A stretch of 23,054 nt of DNA from a virus. Within the stretch, counting starts at the first letter, position 1; each line of letters opens with the position of its first letter. The position numbers and the translations under genes are program-made. The notes beneath the pieces are model-generated. The model was not told the DNA's origin. It was given only the letters and a program-made list of their open reading frames with translations, and ran no database searches. Positions 3,146 through 23,054 of this stretch are shown piece by piece. The stretch is from IMG/VR virus record IMGVR_UViG_3300042465_004510, positions 1 to 23,054 of that record, one strand, 5' to 3'.

Positions 3146-3667
3146 ATGGACTTAATGATTGATCTTGAAGGGCTTGCAACAGGCCCAGACACATGTATTC
3201 TTACTATAGCCGCCCAAACGTTTGACCCGTTTGGGGAAGGTCATTATGACCAATGCTACTATGCTAGGGTGACACTAGAAAGTCAACCAGATCGAAAAAT
3301 TGAACAAGGCACAATTGAGTGGTGGGCCACACAACCTGCAATTGTACGGGACGAAGCTTTCAATGAAGAAGGTCGTATCCCGCTAGACCAAGCTCTAGAT
3401 GGATTAGCCAAACTGATTTGGCACTCCAACAGAATCTGGGCACAAGGCCCAACCTACGACATGAACATTCTAGAGCACGCCTACAAAAGCTATCACAAAC
3501 CCCTGCCTTGGAAATATTACATGGTACGAGACAGTCGTACTGTGTTCTCACTGTGGCCTGATCAACCTATTCCGCCCACTAGCCACCATGCGCTAGAAGA
3601 CTGTCGCAGACAAATTAGCATGCTACAGCGCACACTTGATCACCTTAACGTAACCTCTCTTAAATGA
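3146..3667 (+). CDS. dexA: DexA-like 3'-5' exonuclease (DEDDh fold)
   Basis: A 173-residue RNase-H-fold exonuclease of the Rv2179c/T4 DexA type. The first DEDD motif is MIDLEG with Asp6 and Glu8. The family hallmark TIEWW is at residues 56-60 (T4 DexA has the same TIEWW). The second acidic motif has Asp105 in TYDMNIL. The last motif is HHALED with His147 and Asp152, spaced as in DEDDh enzymes. DexA removes nucleotides from 3' ends of single-stranded DNA. It is shorter than T4 DexA (about 227 aa), lacking internal loops. The gene overlaps the next by four bases (ATGA), so the two are translationally coupled. It probably starts from the leaderless promoter directly upstream. Confidence 0.85.
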   Translation: MDLMIDLEGLATGPDTCILTIAAQTFDPFGEGHYDQCYYARVTLESQPDRKIEQGTIEWWATQPAIVRDEAFNEEGRIPLDQALDGLAKLIWHSNRIWAQGPTYDMNILEHAYKSYHKPLPWKYYMVRDSRTVFSLWPDQPIPPTSHHALEDCRRQISMLQRTLDHLNVTSLK

Positions 3668-4176
3668 CACTTCCTAAACTGCTTATCATTGGCAATGCCC
3701 GTCACGGCAAAGATACTGTATGCGATATCTTACGTGAAGAATTCGGCTATAGTTTTCGTTCTAGTTCGGACTTTTGTGCCGAAAAGTTTATCTATGATGA
3801 GCTCAAACTCAAGTACGGATATACCAGCTATGCCCAGTGTTTTGAGGATCGCCACAATCACCGAGCAGAATGGTATGACATGATTCATGAGTACTGTCGT
3901 GATGATTTTGCTAGACTGGGCCGAGAAATTTTTGCCGAAAACTCTATCTACTGTGGCTTGCGTAACAAAAGTGAGTTCCATGCCATGCGTAACACCCAGG
4001 TGTTTGACTACGCCGTCTGGGTAGATCGTAGCGATCACTTGCCTGCAGAAGACCGCTCTAGTATGAGCCTGGAAATCTGGATGGCTGATTATGTAATTGA
4101 CAACAATGGTACATTAGAAGATCTACAGCGAAACACTCGAGAACTAATGACTACGTTGTTAAAAATCCGCAGTTAG
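3664..4176 (+). CDS. P-loop nucleotide kinase, dNMP-kinase-like
   Basis: A 170-residue kinase-like protein. The P-loop GNARHGKDT is at residues 10-18 (Lys16 and Thr18 contact the phosphates), right after the first beta strand (KLLIIG). A lid- or Arg-rich region follows (FEDRHNHRAEW near 60-70), then a strand with VFDYAVWVDRSDHLP near 118-131, and a C-terminal MADYVIDNNGTLEDL typical of small nucleotide kinases. The likely role is phosphorylating deoxynucleoside monophosphates for phage DNA synthesis, as T4 gp1 does, but it is not a close T4 gp1 match. It overlaps the exonuclease gene by ATGA, and its 3' end overlaps the convergent HNH gene by 18 bases. Confidence 0.75.
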   Translation: MTLPKLLIIGNARHGKDTVCDILREEFGYSFRSSSDFCAEKFIYDELKLKYGYTSYAQCFEDRHNHRAEWYDMIHEYCRDDFARLGREIFAENSIYCGLRNKSEFHAMRNTQVFDYAVWVDRSDHLPAEDRSSMSLEIWMADYVIDNNGTLEDLQRNTRELMTTLLKIRS

Positions 4177-4503
4177 ATCACCAGGCTTCCACGGCAAGTC
4201 ACTACGAGTGATTTCTACCGAGCAATTCATGCAAATAGTTTTTAAGTTTCTAAAGTCACAATTGTTTAAATTACCGTCTAGATGATACACCATTAACTGT
4301 GCTGTTGTTCTTGCTTTGAAACCACATCTATCGCATGTGGTTTTCTTTTTGTATCCAGCCAACTGCCATCTAGGCTTCACTGCTGGTAATTTTTTTTGTT
4401 TTCTAATGCAGGCATTGCATCTTGAACGATAATAAATTTTACCATTGTGCCAGCCGTTGACTGCTGCCAGACTTTTATTACATACTTTACATAGTGGTCG
4501 CAT
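4159..4503 (-). CDS. HNH-type zinc-binding endonuclease-like protein
   Basis: A 114-residue protein and the only minus-strand gene in the window. It has two N-terminal zinc knuckle pairs (C5-x2-C8 and C29-x2-C32) and a second pair set, C57-x2-C60 and C91-x2-C94. The second set encloses an HNH-like core with His74-x-Asp76-Gly-Asn78 and a following Asn86 in RNLK. This is the small HNH style found scattered in T4-like phages. Whether it still cuts DNA is unknown. It could be a free-standing homing nuclease or a packaging-associated HNH protein. On the minus strand its ATG lies four bases after a TAAATA box, so it too may be made from a leaderless late mRNA. Confidence 0.7.
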   Translation of the reverse strand: MRPLCKVCNKSLAAVNGWHNGKIYYRSRCNACIRKQKKLPAVKPRWQLAGYKKKTTCDRCGFKARTTAQLMVYHLDGNLNNCDFRNLKTICMNCSVEITRSDLPWKPGDLTADF

Positions 4504-15673: not shown

Positions 15674-16111
15674 ATGAAAAAACTTTTAATTCTTTTAGCA
15701 CTTGTGCCTTGCTTGGCTATTGCACAACCCAAACAACGACCTGGCGTTATATATGACGCTGTGATTACCAGAGTCATAGACGGTGACACAGTAGGCATTG
15801 CTGCCACTTGGTTGCCTGCACCACTCAAACCAGAACTCAGTGTTCGTGTGTACGGTGTGGACACGCCGGAAAAAGGGCATCGTGCTCAGTGCCCTAGTGA
15901 AGCACAGCGTGGTGAAGCAGCCACAGCATTTACCAAGCAAGCAATTGCTAATGCACAAAAACGACAAATTGTACTCATGGACTGGGACAAGTATGGCGGC
16001 CGTGTACTGGGCGATGTGCTACTGAATGGACAAAGCCTGCGTGGCATGCTGATTGCCAACGGTTTTGCCCGTGAATACTACGGCGAAGCCAAAACTAGTT
16101 GGTGTAATTGA
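15674..16111 (+). CDS. secreted staphylococcal-nuclease-like nuclease (SNase)
   Basis: 145 residues. An N-terminal signal peptide (MKKLLILLALVPCLAIA, cut near residue 17) is followed by a complete SNase-fold domain. Calcium and catalytic residues are all present: Asp36/Asp38 in VIDGDT, Arg58 in SVRVYGVDTPE with Asp63 and Glu66, and Arg110 in DKYGGRV (equivalent to SNase Asp21, Arg35, Asp40, Glu43 and Arg87). The family cuts DNA and RNA to 3'-phosphate products. Export to the periplasm is implied, so targets could be host or superinfecting DNA at the envelope. It sits between internal-protein genes and the terminase, an odd place for a secreted enzyme. A predicted lipoprotein is unlikely because LVPCLAI is not a good lipobox. 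Confidence 0.85.
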   Translation: MKKLLILLALVPCLAIAQPKQRPGVIYDAVITRVIDGDTVGIAATWLPAPLKPELSVRVYGVDTPEKGHRAQCPSEAQRGEAATAFTKQAIANAQKRQIVLMDWDKYGGRVLGDVLLNGQSLRGMLIANGFAREYYGEAKTSWCN

Positions 16112-19871: not shown

Positions 19872-19941
19872 CAGTAGTGTGTACGTTAGTAAATTACACA
19901 TAGGCTTACATAGGCATTTAATTCTGAAAGGTAAAAACACT

Positions 19942-20922
19942 ATGGCATCATTAGCAGAAATCCGCGCAAGACTCGCAGCCGCAGAGTCTAACAAGGGCGG
20001 TCAATCACAAGGCGGCGACAACGCAATTTACCCACACTGGAACATTGATGAAGGCGCAAGCGCAACTCTGCGTTTCCTCCCAGATGGCAACAGTAAAAAC
20101 ACTTTTTTCTGGGTGGAACGAGCAATGATTAAATTGCCGTTTGCCGGTATCAAAGGTGAGATGGAATCCAAACAAGTTCAAGTACAAGTTCCTTGTGTTG
20201 AGATGTGGGGCGAAGCTTGCCCAATCTTGGCAGAAGTACGCACTTGGTTCAAGGACAAGAGTCTGGAAGACATGGGCCGTAAATATTGGAAGAAACGCAG
20301 TTATGTCATGCAGGGTTTCGTACGTGAAAATCCTCTCAGTGATGACAAGAGTCCAGAGAATCCAATCCGTAGATTTATCATTGGTCCACAAATCTTTGCT
20401 ACCATCAAGTCAGCATTGATGGATCCTGAGTTGGAAGAATTGCCAACAGACTTGCTACGTGGCTTGGATTTCCGTATCACAAAAACCAGCAAAGGCGGCT
20501 ATGCTGACTACTCCACCTCCAAGTGGGCTCGTAAAGAATCAGCACTAACCGAAGCTGAACAAGTTGCTGTTGAAGCGCATGGCTTGTTTGACTTGAGCAC
20601 ATTCCTGCCCAAGAAACCCGGCGATGTTGAACTTCGTGTAATGAAAGAAATGTTTGAAGCATCAGTAGATGGTCAACCATATGACACAGAGCGTTGGGGA
20701 CAATACTTCCGTCCTGCTGGTGTACAAGCACCTGCTGGCACCGCACCAGAAGCGGCACCTAAAGCAGTGTCAGCACCAGCGGCTAGCAAACCAGCAATGG
20801 ATGATGAGCCCCCTTTTGACACTGACGAAGCACCGGCAGCATCTGCGCCAGTGGCAGCCCCCAAGACCACACAGAAGGCCGAGGATATCTTGGCCATGAT
20901 TCGTGCTAGACAAAAACAATAA
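19942..20922 (+). CDS. 32: single-stranded DNA-binding protein, gp32-like
   Basis: 326 residues from the ATG at 19942 (T4 gp32 is 301). A GTG at 19879 opens the same frame but lies on the transcription start, lacks a ribosome site, and its extra 21 residues are unlike the family. The N-terminal MASLAEIRARLAA is the cooperativity region. The core has WNIDEGASATLRFLPDGNS, VPCVEMWGEACPIL, DMGRKYWKKRSYVMQGFV and NPIRRFIIGPQIF. The acidic C-terminus has DDEPPFDTDE and ends EDILAMIRARQKQ, the protein-docking tail. It coats single-stranded DNA in replication and recombination. Only Cys85 and Cys93 of the T4 zinc ligands seem kept (His64 and the last Cys are replaced). Confidence 0.88.
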   Translation: MASLAEIRARLAAAESNKGGQSQGGDNAIYPHWNIDEGASATLRFLPDGNSKNTFFWVERAMIKLPFAGIKGEMESKQVQVQVPCVEMWGEACPILAEVRTWFKDKSLEDMGRKYWKKRSYVMQGFVRENPLSDDKSPENPIRRFIIGPQIFATIKSALMDPELEELPTDLLRGLDFRITKTSKGGYADYSTSKWARKESALTEAEQVAVEAHGLFDLSTFLPKKPGDVELRVMKEMFEASVDGQPYDTERWGQYFRPAGVQAPAGTAPEAAPKAVSAPAASKPAMDDEPPFDTDEAPAASAPVAAPKTTQKAEDILAMIRARQKQ

Positions 20923-20934
20923 ACTTGTTAACGG

Positions 20935-20981: not shown

Positions 20982-22052
20982 ATGATAGAAGAAATCGAAT
21001 GGGAAATTAGCAGTCTTTGTAATGCTAGTTGCCCACAATGCCCACGTAATATCAATGGCGGAGCCACTTGGCCAGATTTGCCATTGACAGTTACCAGCGT
21101 CGATACGTTTTTGTTACCAGACGTTGCCAAGTTGTTACAGCAAGTTAAACGATTGTACCTGTGCGGCACCTACGGTGATCCAATTACCAACAAGCACTTG
21201 CTGAAGATTATTAAAACTGTGCGTGAAATAAACCCAGGTATCACCATTGATATTCACACCAACGGTGGACTACACAGTACTCAATACTGGCAGCATCTAG
21301 CTGAGTTGATTAATGGTAATGGCACTGTGTATTTTGCAATTGACGGGTTGGAAGATACCAATCACTTGTATCGTGTGAATGTAGATTTTGACAAAGCATT
21401 TGGCAATGCCTTGGCTTATATAAAAGCAGGCGGCACAGCAGTTTGGGATTTTATTGTATTCAAACACAACGAACATCAAGTTGACACTGCACAATCTTTG
21501 GCAAAAAGTTCTGGCTTTAAGAAAATTAATTTTAAAAAGTCCAGTAGATTTTTTGACAAGAATCACAGCTTCATTGACAAGTATCCGGTGTTGAATAGCC
21601 AGAAAGAAGTTGCATACTATTTGGAACCCAGCCAAAAGTTTTTGAACAATGACTATGAAAAAATTCATTGGTTCAACAACAACCAACAGTTAACTGAGTA
21701 TTTTAGTACCACCAGCATTAGTTGCTATAGTAAACAAATCAAAAAAATATTTGTCACTGTAGAGGGATATGTTTTTCCCTGTGGCTGGTTGCATGATCGC
21801 ATGTACGGTGAGAAGTCCACAAATCATCGTGACCAAATACAGTTAGACCACTTGTGGGAAATTGCAGGAGGAAAACGCCGATCCAATATTCATCACACTG
21901 CTGTGACAGATATTATTGCCGGTGATGGTAGTTGGTTTGACACCATTGAAAAGTCCTGGACCAATAGTAATCGACTTGAACGCTGTGGGTTACATTGTGG
22001 ACAAGAGATCAACTTAATCAAATACCAGAATGATATCACCTACGATTTATAA
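20982..22052 (+). CDS. radical SAM enzyme with C-terminal auxiliary Fe-S cysteines
   Basis: 356 residues from the ATG at 20982. A TTG at 20925 would add 19 residues that run through the hairpin. The radical SAM motif is Cys13-x3-Cys17-x2-Cys20 (CNASCPQC), preceded by IEWEIS as the first strand. LCGTYGDP near 62-69 and IDIHTNGG near 91-98 are the usual SAM-contact strands. The C-terminus keeps four cysteines (Cys248, Cys267, Cys335 and Cys339), a SPASM or twitch-like arrangement that would hold an extra cluster. It should cleave SAM to a 5'-deoxyadenosyl radical; the substrate is unknown. Members of this family modify peptides, sugars or cofactors. It precedes a PLP-enzyme-like gene by 73 bases. 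Confidence 0.8.
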   Translation: MIEEIEWEISSLCNASCPQCPRNINGGATWPDLPLTVTSVDTFLLPDVAKLLQQVKRLYLCGTYGDPITNKHLLKIIKTVREINPGITIDIHTNGGLHSTQYWQHLAELINGNGTVYFAIDGLEDTNHLYRVNVDFDKAFGNALAYIKAGGTAVWDFIVFKHNEHQVDTAQSLAKSSGFKKINFKKSSRFFDKNHSFIDKYPVLNSQKEVAYYLEPSQKFLNNDYEKIHWFNNNQQLTEYFSTTSISCYSKQIKKIFVTVEGYVFPCGWLHDRMYGEKSTNHRDQIQLDHLWEIAGGKRRSNIHHTAVTDIIAGDGSWFDTIEKSWTNSNRLERCGLHCGQEINLIKYQNDITYDL

Positions 22053-22066
22053 TTGCCCAAACGCAC

Positions 22067-22100
22067 TTGCACATTGGACTACTAGTGTGTTAAACTCACT
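22067..22100 (+). promoter_or_regulatory. possible extended -10 promoter with operator-like dyad
   Basis: TTGCAC at 22067-22072, 18-bp spacer, TAAACT at 22091-22096 preceded by TGT. The -10 is overlapped by an imperfect 17-base dyad AGTGTGTTAAACTCACT (22084-22100), 7 of 8 arm positions paired. It shares GTGTTA-AC with the dyad at 3131-3145. The leader to the ATG at 22126 is about 25 bases, without an obvious ribosome site. Confidence 0.4.
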
Positions 22101-22125
22101 GTTACAAGTAAAAAAGTAATACGCA

Positions 22126-22971
22126 ATGTTGATCGAACACAAACCATTACAAGATAAGGCAATAGTTGATGAGCTGTTTGCAACAGTTACACATCTGTGT
22201 GCCAACGATGTTGATATTGGGTTGTGGGATACCAAACAGCATATTGAAATTTTTAAACAATGGCTGAACACCGGAACAGCAACTACGCTGACAGGACTTG
22301 ATGATTTTAAGTTTTCGGCATTGTGTGTTGGTACATCAGATGCAATCAACAATTTCATACATCGTAACACTGCCAGGCGCCTACGTTTTAGCTGTGCAGA
22401 ATTTGTTTTGAGTAAAATAACTTGCAACAACATCAACGCCAGATGGAAATTTATTGAAGATGGCAAATTAGAACCCGGCGACGCAGTGGTGTTAAGTTTG
22501 CCGTTTTCCGGCAATGGTAGTAAGCACCCGGATCATGACATGATTCTAGACATTTGCACTAAATTGGGTATACCAGTGTGCCTGGATGTTGCTTATGTAG
22601 GCATTGCTCATAATCTGCACATAGACTTGACAGCACCTTGCATCACTGATGTCACTGCCAGCTTGAGTAAATCATTCTCAGTGATGTTGAGGCATGGTAT
22701 AAGGTTTACTAGAGAATACATTGATGACAGTGTGCAGTATGCCAGTGATCGGGGGATGTTGCCTAGACTCAACATTGTACTTGCAAGCAAACTGATGCAA
22801 AAGTTCCACAAAGACTACATTGTCAATAAGTATCTTTCCAAATATCGTACAGAGTGTGAAAAGTTGGGTCTTGACACAACAAACACAATAACGTTGGCAT
22901 TAGGCAACGATCAAGCATTTTCAAGGGGTGGATACAATCGTGTATGCATCACAGATGAAATTTTAACATAA
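22126..22971 (+). CDS. PLP-dependent aminotransferase-like protein
   Basis: 281 residues with the key steps of a fold-type I PLP enzyme. VGTSDAI at about 68-74 is the phosphate-binding turn. SLPFSGNGS near 125-133 stands where NPTG-type loops occur. Asp154-x2-Tyr157 (LDVAYVG) is the pair that holds the pyridine nitrogen and ring hydroxyl. Lys182 in SLSKSF is the Schiff-base lysine, with Arg189-His-Gly as the phosphate-contact arginine. It is much shorter than the usual 380-420 residues; the small domain at both ends looks reduced. The reaction and substrate are unknown. With the radical SAM gene it could form a two-enzyme biosynthetic pair inserted between gp32 and the next replication gene. 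Confidence 0.65.
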   Translation: MLIEHKPLQDKAIVDELFATVTHLCANDVDIGLWDTKQHIEIFKQWLNTGTATTLTGLDDFKFSALCVGTSDAINNFIHRNTARRLRFSCAEFVLSKITCNNINARWKFIEDGKLEPGDAVVLSLPFSGNGSKHPDHDMILDICTKLGIPVCLDVAYVGIAHNLHIDLTAPCITDVTASLSKSFSVMLRHGIRFTREYIDDSVQYASDRGMLPRLNIVLASKLMQKFHKDYIVNKYLSKYRTECEKLGLDTTNTITLALGNDQAFSRGGYNRVCITDEILT

Positions 22972-22992: not shown

Positions 22993-23054
22993 ATGGGAAA
23001 ACCATTTGACGTTTCAAAGTTCCGTAAGGAAATTACAAAAAGTATTGATGGCCT
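22993..23054 (+). CDS. uvsX: start of a probable UvsX-like recombinase (partial)
   Basis: Only the first 20 residues are inside the window: MGKPFDVSKFRKEITKSIDG, cut at the right edge. The wording FDVSKFRK-ITKSI resembles the opening of RecA-type UvsX proteins of aquatic T4-like phages as I recall them, and the position after gp32 supports a recombination gene. The Walker region is not visible, so this is a tentative name. A weak purine-rich ribosome site (GCGAGAAAGA) precedes the ATG. Confidence 0.45.
   Translation, partial: MGKPFDVSKFRKEITKSIDG

Follow-up and report, generated by a model that had tools for sequence, protein, structure and literature searches.

A radical SAM and PLP enzyme gene pair between gp32 and uvsX of an environmental T4-type virus: a possible accessory biosynthetic cassette

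The stretch of DNA analysed here (the window) comes from an environmental virus, as a fragment of 23,054 bases that contains T4-type terminase, single-stranded DNA-binding protein (SSB) and uvsX genes; the viral contigs near-identical to it are all shorter than 9 kb. Two uninterrupted open reading frames lie on the + strand between a gp32-type SSB gene (19936-20922, +; phrog_1192, 7.8e-68), which forms the left flank of the site, and the uvsX recombinase gene, whose first codons (22994-23054, +) form the right flank and which is complete in loci L002/L004. The first frame, P0001 (20982-22052, +), encodes a twitch-type radical SAM protein of 356 aa and follows the gp32 gene after a gap of 59 bases. 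The second, P0002 (22126-22971, +), starts after a further 73 bases and encodes a compact, fold-type-I PLP aminotransferase-like protein of 281 aa. Both frames fall exactly where a first-pass annotation had placed an enzyme gene pair between gp32 and uvsX. An in-frame TTG at 20925 is a possible alternative start for P0001, homologues of which start at or near 20982. The GC contents of the two genes (0.395 and 0.407) differ from that of the window (0.435), an offset so slight that base composition was dropped as evidence of recent acquisition. Among the other genes of the window, one at 15674-16111, just upstream of the terminase large subunit, appears by eye to encode a secreted thermonuclease-like protein (signal peptide and staphylococcal-nuclease-like region). 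A dNMP-kinase-like gene (3664-4176; phrog_139, 3e-15; PF21448 under cut-off) upstream of a tail-sheath-like gene could hint at modified nucleotides, and a small Cys-rich protein, possibly HNH-like by eye, is encoded between these two (4159-4503, -).

P0001 was placed in the radical SAM superfamily by its match to PF04055 (E = 1.3e-9; 38.8 bits against a cut-off of 29.5), and also matched phrog_21308 (3.3e-24). In an alignment of 46 homologues, the SAM-binding [4Fe-4S] motif C13-x3-C17-x2-C20 (CX3CX2C; 21018-21041, +) is invariant. So are four cysteines near the C-terminus, C248, C267, C335 and C339 (codons at 21723, 21780, 21984 and 21996), bearing out the extra C-terminal cysteines remarked on in the first-pass annotation. 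Their arrangement, which is of the twitch/SPASM type, points to a putative twitch domain with one auxiliary [4Fe-4S] cluster (21723-21998, +), cluster binding being predicted from the cysteine pattern. P0001 scored above none of the NCBIfam radical SAM equivalog cut-offs (best TIGR04317, 51 bits against a cut-off of 380); its catalytic residues are conserved and it is apparently an intact enzyme.

An AlphaFold2 model of P0001 (mean pLDDT 94.7) matched SkfB, BlsE, SuiB, anSME, MoaA, DesII and BtrN, with ChlB also scoring high. The best Foldseek match was SkfB (1.7e-11), and structural Z scores were 19.1 for SuiB, 18.9 for BlsE, 18.4 for SkfB, 18.1 for anSME, 18.0 for MoaA and 17.6 for DesII. 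Since these leading values lie close together, the fold of P0001 cannot choose between a peptide and a carbohydrate substrate. BlsE, the cytosylglucuronate decarboxylase of blasticidin S (PDB 7vob), is the second-best structural match (Foldseek 4.4e-11; Z calculated over 273 residues) and acts on a sugar. It is similar to P0001 in size, in its radical SAM core and in its C-terminal auxiliary-cluster region, but the two share 15% identity and the GGEP motif of BlsE is GTYGDP in P0001. The motif for the second cluster also differs, being reported as CxCxxC in BlsE (PMC3715490) and reading C-x18-C ... C-x3-C in P0001, and the P0001 locus has no nucleoside-sugar genes. BtrN, the butirosin twitch dehydrogenase (PDB 4m7t), is twitch-type like P0001 (Foldseek 3.1e-8; Z 15.8), but is shorter (∼250 aa) and only weakly similar in sequence (profile E = 0.018).

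The assignment of P0002 to the PLP enzymes is weak from this protein alone and firm with its relatives: P0002 itself matched the Pfam family Aminotran_1_2 at E = 0.025, under the cut-off, whereas PF00155 was matched by seven of ten family members (best 4e-7) and a P0002-family profile found aminotransferases in the PDB at 1.8e-4. A 42-sequence alignment of the family shows no variation at D154, K182, R189 or R272, and conservation of Y157 is 90% or more, in agreement with the earlier statement that Asp154, Tyr157 and Lys182 are kept. By motif, D154-x-x-Y157 (22585-22596, +) occupies the positions of D222/Y225 in AAT, and R272 near the C-terminus (22939-22941, +) that of AAT R386, associated with a substrate carboxylate or phosphate; K182, the Schiff-base lysine, and R189, at the phosphate-binding arginine position, span 22669-22692 (+). 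The AlphaFold2 model built from the same alignment (pLDDT 94.6) had HisC as its top Foldseek match (1.3e-11), and VIA-align superposed it on many aminotransferases and related lyases with Z of ∼21 over ∼270 of the 281 residues. In fold and in its Asp, Lys and Arg residues P0002 thus agrees with the fold-type-I PLP aminotransferases (AAT class I/II), and it is apparently a compact, complete HisC/AAT-like enzyme with both fold domains covered by the model. The first-pass description of the protein as reduced therefore holds for its size but not in the sense of degeneracy, and a broken or pseudo PLP protein is ruled out by the full predicted fold and the conserved residues. HisC itself (histidinol-phosphate aminotransferase; PDB 1uu1, 1h1c) shares the whole-chain fold and the catalytic Asp/Tyr/Lys/Arg positions, but is only ∼15% identical and longer (∼335 aa), and no histidine genes lie near P0002. 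CobD decarboxylase and C-S lyases matched the fold about as well as aminotransferases, so the modelled fold cannot tell aminotransferase from decarboxylase or lyase chemistry. DegT-type sugar aminotransferases were absent among the top VIA-align matches, which is no evidence of a difference.

The context of the pair was investigated in relatives sampled by terminase, which provided 49 loci with both gp32 and uvsX; three of these are near-copies of the window and the other 46 were counted. The gap between the two genes is empty in 16 of the 46, with spacing as small as 13 bases; the pair lies outside the T4 core. The remaining gaps hold diverse cargo, several items of which were named by eye from motifs, including sulfotransferase-, hydroxylase-, amidinotransferase- and glycosyltransferase-like genes, short-chain-type reductase (SDR) genes and radical SAM genes. 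At least three other phages have the P0001 family in this gap: in L111 and L136 it stands behind an SDR gene, and in L130 neither an SDR nor a PLP gene accompanies it. The gp32-uvsX site is an insertion hotspot, and position alone is therefore uninformative on a joint function of P0001 and P0002. A second recurrent cassette was seen between gp32 and uvsX in L102, L110, L088, L094, L058, L090 and L091, composed of a sulfotransferase-like gene, a twitch radical SAM gene, sometimes an Asp/Asn-hydroxylase-like gene, an SDR gene and a second twitch radical SAM gene.

Searches with P0002 only found no match in phage records, no cellular relatives, no true match in the PDB and, in viral contigs, near-identical sequences alone; relatives of 27-47% identity surfaced by following the radical SAM relatives, in a sensitive scan that used an alignment of the radical SAM subfamily. 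The lack of co-occurrence suggested by the P0002-only searches was accordingly rejected as a sensitivity artefact, given that such relatives stand beside radical SAM genes. After clustering of the radical SAM proteins at 90% identity, 43 non-redundant loci were left, and neighbours were counted within four genes. The PLP family is a neighbour at nine of the 43, in both gene orders. In L129, beside a DNA ligase gene, and in L133, the PLP gene directly precedes the radical SAM gene and their frames overlap; in L178 it directly follows it, and in L152, L165, L175/L170 and L181 a few genes at most separate the two. A Bacteriovoracaceae genome (L197) is among the nine. By comparison, the PLP family gave no match in 80 terminase-selected loci (1.07 Mb) and one match in ten terminase-selected contigs (∼2.1 Mb). 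Mapping the PLP label onto the radical SAM tree takes seven changes, six of them forced by starred branches, and mapping the radical SAM label onto the PLP tree takes eight, of which four are forced. The pairing thus recurs in phages that are distant from one another and in one bacterium or more, and is not a chance neighbourhood; the refuting outcome named in the first-pass annotation, genes that do not co-occur in relatives, was not observed. An SDR reductase is found within four genes at 21 of the 43 loci, and in no case do PLP and SDR genes stand beside the same radical SAM gene (0/43; P = 8.8e-4 if independent, an optimistic value since the sequences are related).

A scan for the PLP family gave 55 non-redundant members, which have within four genes a 2OG-oxygenase-like gene in 34 cases (adjacent in 27), an amidinotransferase gene in 29 and a radical SAM gene in nine. 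The oxygenases keep HxD...H and matched solved oxygenases weakly (AtsK, E = 0.014); in the nearest relatives of P0002 (L224-L227, 38-47% identical), such an oxygenase takes the place of the radical SAM protein. The closest solved relative of the amidinotransferases is the inosamine-phosphate amidinotransferase StrB1 of streptomycin biosynthesis (PDB 1bwd), matched by their profile at 3.7e-117 and 394 bits, compared with 252-261 bits for glycine amidinotransferase. The amidinotransferase is not a constant partner, as none is present in the 356-kb record that holds the radical SAM, 2OG-oxygenase and PLP set of L152. On the radical SAM side, the partner SDR resembles FabG, its Tyr and Lys being invariant, and the adjacent downstream gene at 14 of the 43 loci matched TIGR04324, named 'sporadic carbohydrate cluster 2OG-Fe(II) oxygenase', and TIGR04323, both under their curated cut-offs. 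Glycosyltransferase-like genes also occur among the neighbours in relatives. Beside the pair in the window there is no amidinotransferase, F180-type 2OG oxygenase or SDR gene, and the StrB1-like gene is absent from the whole 23 kb available for this phage. In L228 (6001-8315), two PLP-oxygenase-like pairs lie side by side on opposite strands and resemble paralogous modules, the second PLP protein being 29% identical to P0002.

We propose, with slightly less than even confidence, that P0001 and P0002 constitute an accessory two-enzyme biosynthetic cassette at the gp32-uvsX site, in which P0001 would generate a carbonyl for amination by P0002, on a small substrate that is probably sugar- or cyclitol-like. 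We infer the reaction, its order, the substrate and the purpose as follows. In P0001, a 5'-deoxyadenosyl radical and the auxiliary cluster would abstract a hydrogen and an electron at an unactivated carbinol or C-H position to leave a carbonyl, which P0002 would transaminate to an amine. In relatives bearing an SDR the carbonyl would be reduced in place of amination, and where a StrB1-like amidinotransferase follows the PLP gene it would convert the new amine to a guanidine. The most likely substrate would be a sugar, a cyclitol or a polyol of similar kind, whose product may decorate a glycan of the virion or host surface, DNA being a less likely recipient. Since PLP and SDR genes replace each other, one enzyme aminating and the other reducing, the product of the radical SAM enzyme is most simply read as a carbonyl, and an amidinotransferase behind the PLP gene fits because amidination needs the amine just made. 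In both BtrN-BtrS and DesII-DesV, the product of the radical SAM enzyme is subsequently transaminated, and the reaction of BtrN is oxidation of an alcohol to a ketone. For the SDR-bearing loci, a precedent by reaction logic alone is AprD4, the radical SAM diol dehydratase of apramycin biosynthesis, which hands its product to the NADPH reductase AprD3 (PMC5461906); the partner there is a reductase, whereas that in the window is a PLP enzyme. The StrB1-like, carbohydrate-cluster oxygenase and glycosyltransferase-like neighbours in relatives favour carbohydrate or cyclitol chemistry, and BlsE, DesII and BtrN, which act on sugars or cyclitols, are among the structural matches of P0001. Sugar building, one of the options raised in the first-pass annotation, is therefore the best fit to the neighbourhoods, with the fold of P0001 undiscriminating.

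Several points count against the carbohydrate model and suit instead an action of the pair on an amino acid or peptide, as in RiPP-like or non-proteinogenic amino acid chemistry, a reading we consider doubtful but well worth keeping in view. In the structural comparisons SkfB, SuiB and anSME, with their peptide or protein substrates, tie with BlsE, as does ChlB. P0002 is HisC/AAT-like, of the amino-acid aminotransferase type, whereas sugar aminotransferases are usually of the DegT/StrS type, and an amino acid or phosphate substrate would likewise be accommodated by its invariant C-terminal Arg. The carbohydrate model is further weakened by the lack of an amidinotransferase, F180-type 2OG oxygenase or SDR gene beside the pair in the window, by TIGR04324/TIGR04323 matches that stay under the cut-offs, and by the relatedness of the sequences on which the PLP/SDR exclusivity was counted. 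Amino-acid-tailoring pairs with a 2OG-oxygenase beside a PLP-type enzyme are known from natural products, and the closest relatives of P0002 adjoin such an oxygenase. On the other hand, the gaps of 59 and 73 bases, and the overlaps in L129 and L133, leave no room for a precursor peptide gene, so that a RiPP with an adjacent precursor gene is ruled out, though a distant one may exist; the amidinotransferase neighbour is nearer to the inosamine than to the glycine type, and the neighbour of the radical SAM gene matches carbohydrate-cluster families. It is unlikely, in our view, that the two genes are unrelated cargo that entered the hotspot separately and have no joint function. The high variability of the site, the occurrence of each family without the other in most loci, and the radical SAM genes without PLP at the same site in L111, L130 and L136 would agree with separate entry; repeated independent pairing elsewhere, as at the DNA ligase gene of L129, in both orders and with overlapping frames, and pairing in a bacterial genome, far over background, argue for a functional connection.

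Modification of DNA has also to be weighed. The first-pass annotation had pointed to thymidine hypermodification, in which the substrates of the pair would be 5-hydroxymethyl-dU derivatives in the phage DNA, on the pattern of Pseudomonas phage M6. M6 makes 5-(2-aminoethyl)dU (PMC6449724) and has a radical SAM/PLP-type pair, and the dNMP-kinase-like gene of the window would be in keeping with such a pathway. However, M6 gp053/gp052 show no profile similarity to the P0001 and P0002 families (hhalign probability 0.1 for both), the annotations being threonine-dehydratase-like for the M6 PLP protein and photolyase for the M6 radical SAM protein, and neither the M6 nor the Vi01 record holds a homologue of either family. 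The thymidylate-synthase/dUMP hydroxymethylase family PF00303 was found in none of eight related contigs longer than 300 kb and in one of 22 records, the window itself being a 23-kb fragment. An M6-type pathway is consequently set aside as very improbable. Less remote, though still improbable, is modification of another DNA base, such as a 7-deazaguanine derivative, with P0001 and P0002 carrying out late tailoring steps. A gene with the tRNA-guanine transglycosylase-like motif DSGGFQ is present in all eight related contigs longer than 300 kb and comes immediately after the PLP-2OG pair in L224-L226. This gene is recognised by its motif, with no Pfam, PHROG, NCBIfam or PDB match; it occurs without PLP genes, radical SAM-PLP pairs occur without it, and the neighbouring enzymes are of carbohydrate type. 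The DSGGFQ protein, of ∼510 aa (L224:7420-8994, L226:7466-8992 and the related contigs longer than 300 kb), is possibly a divergent DNA 7-deazaguanine transglycosylase.

Beyond the cassette proposed for the window, the loci may belong to a combinatorial pathway, widespread in phages, that is built from oxidiser and carbonyl-consumer modules and yields cyclitol- or sugar-like compounds, aminated or guanidinylated, to decorate the virion, host surface or DNA; we regard this wider generalisation as rather unlikely but not far-fetched. The oxidiser would be a radical SAM enzyme or 2OG-oxygenase and the carbonyl-consumer a compact PLP aminotransferase or SDR, with a StrB1-like amidinotransferase sometimes added, amounting to streptidine-like chemistry in free-living, mostly T4-like phages. 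In the part of the literature covered, there was no account of a radical SAM-PLP pair, an SDR alternative or a StrB1-like link in phages, and nothing directly relevant on the 'sporadic carbohydrate cluster' or on a phage amidinotransferase with radical SAM enzymes. The enzyme classes are known and their combination in phages appears undescribed, which, within that coverage, supports the earlier suggestion of an undescribed system. Sets of radical SAM and tailoring enzymes to which no purpose has been assigned are found in many environmental T4-like phages, and for modules of this kind the pairing, the SDR exclusivity and the StrB1-like and carbohydrate-cluster neighbours provide a first chemical hypothesis that can be tested. 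If the hypothesis is true, phages would synthesise compounds resembling amino- or guanidino-sugars, known until now chiefly from antibiotic producers, and might use them as a virion coat or to alter host glycans; the two proteins are small and modelled with confidence, and suffice to begin testing.

The nearest described cases are partial. In Pelagibacter phage Mosig EXVC030M, ∼3 kb separate a radical SAM relative from Mosig_00079, a P0002-family 'aminotransferase', but these homologues are distant and on opposite strands among many other tailoring genes. Campylobacter phages CP220/CPt10 are T4-like; their radical SAM clusters are interchangeable and they encode a putative glycine amidinotransferase (PMC2853527), sets for which no function was given (PMC2853527, PMC3322345); multiple radical SAM genes in such phages were called highly unusual in 2010. 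Their radical SAM proteins are distant from P0001 (26% identity over half the protein), and a P0002-family scan found no PLP homologue in CP220. The 'possible glycine amidinotransferase' of CP220 (L121:15240-16301) is a member of the StrB1-like phage family (E = 7.8e-59). In L022, L023/L024, L030, L035, L036/L037 and L039, as many as about ten radical SAM/twitch-domain-like paralogues stand in tandem.
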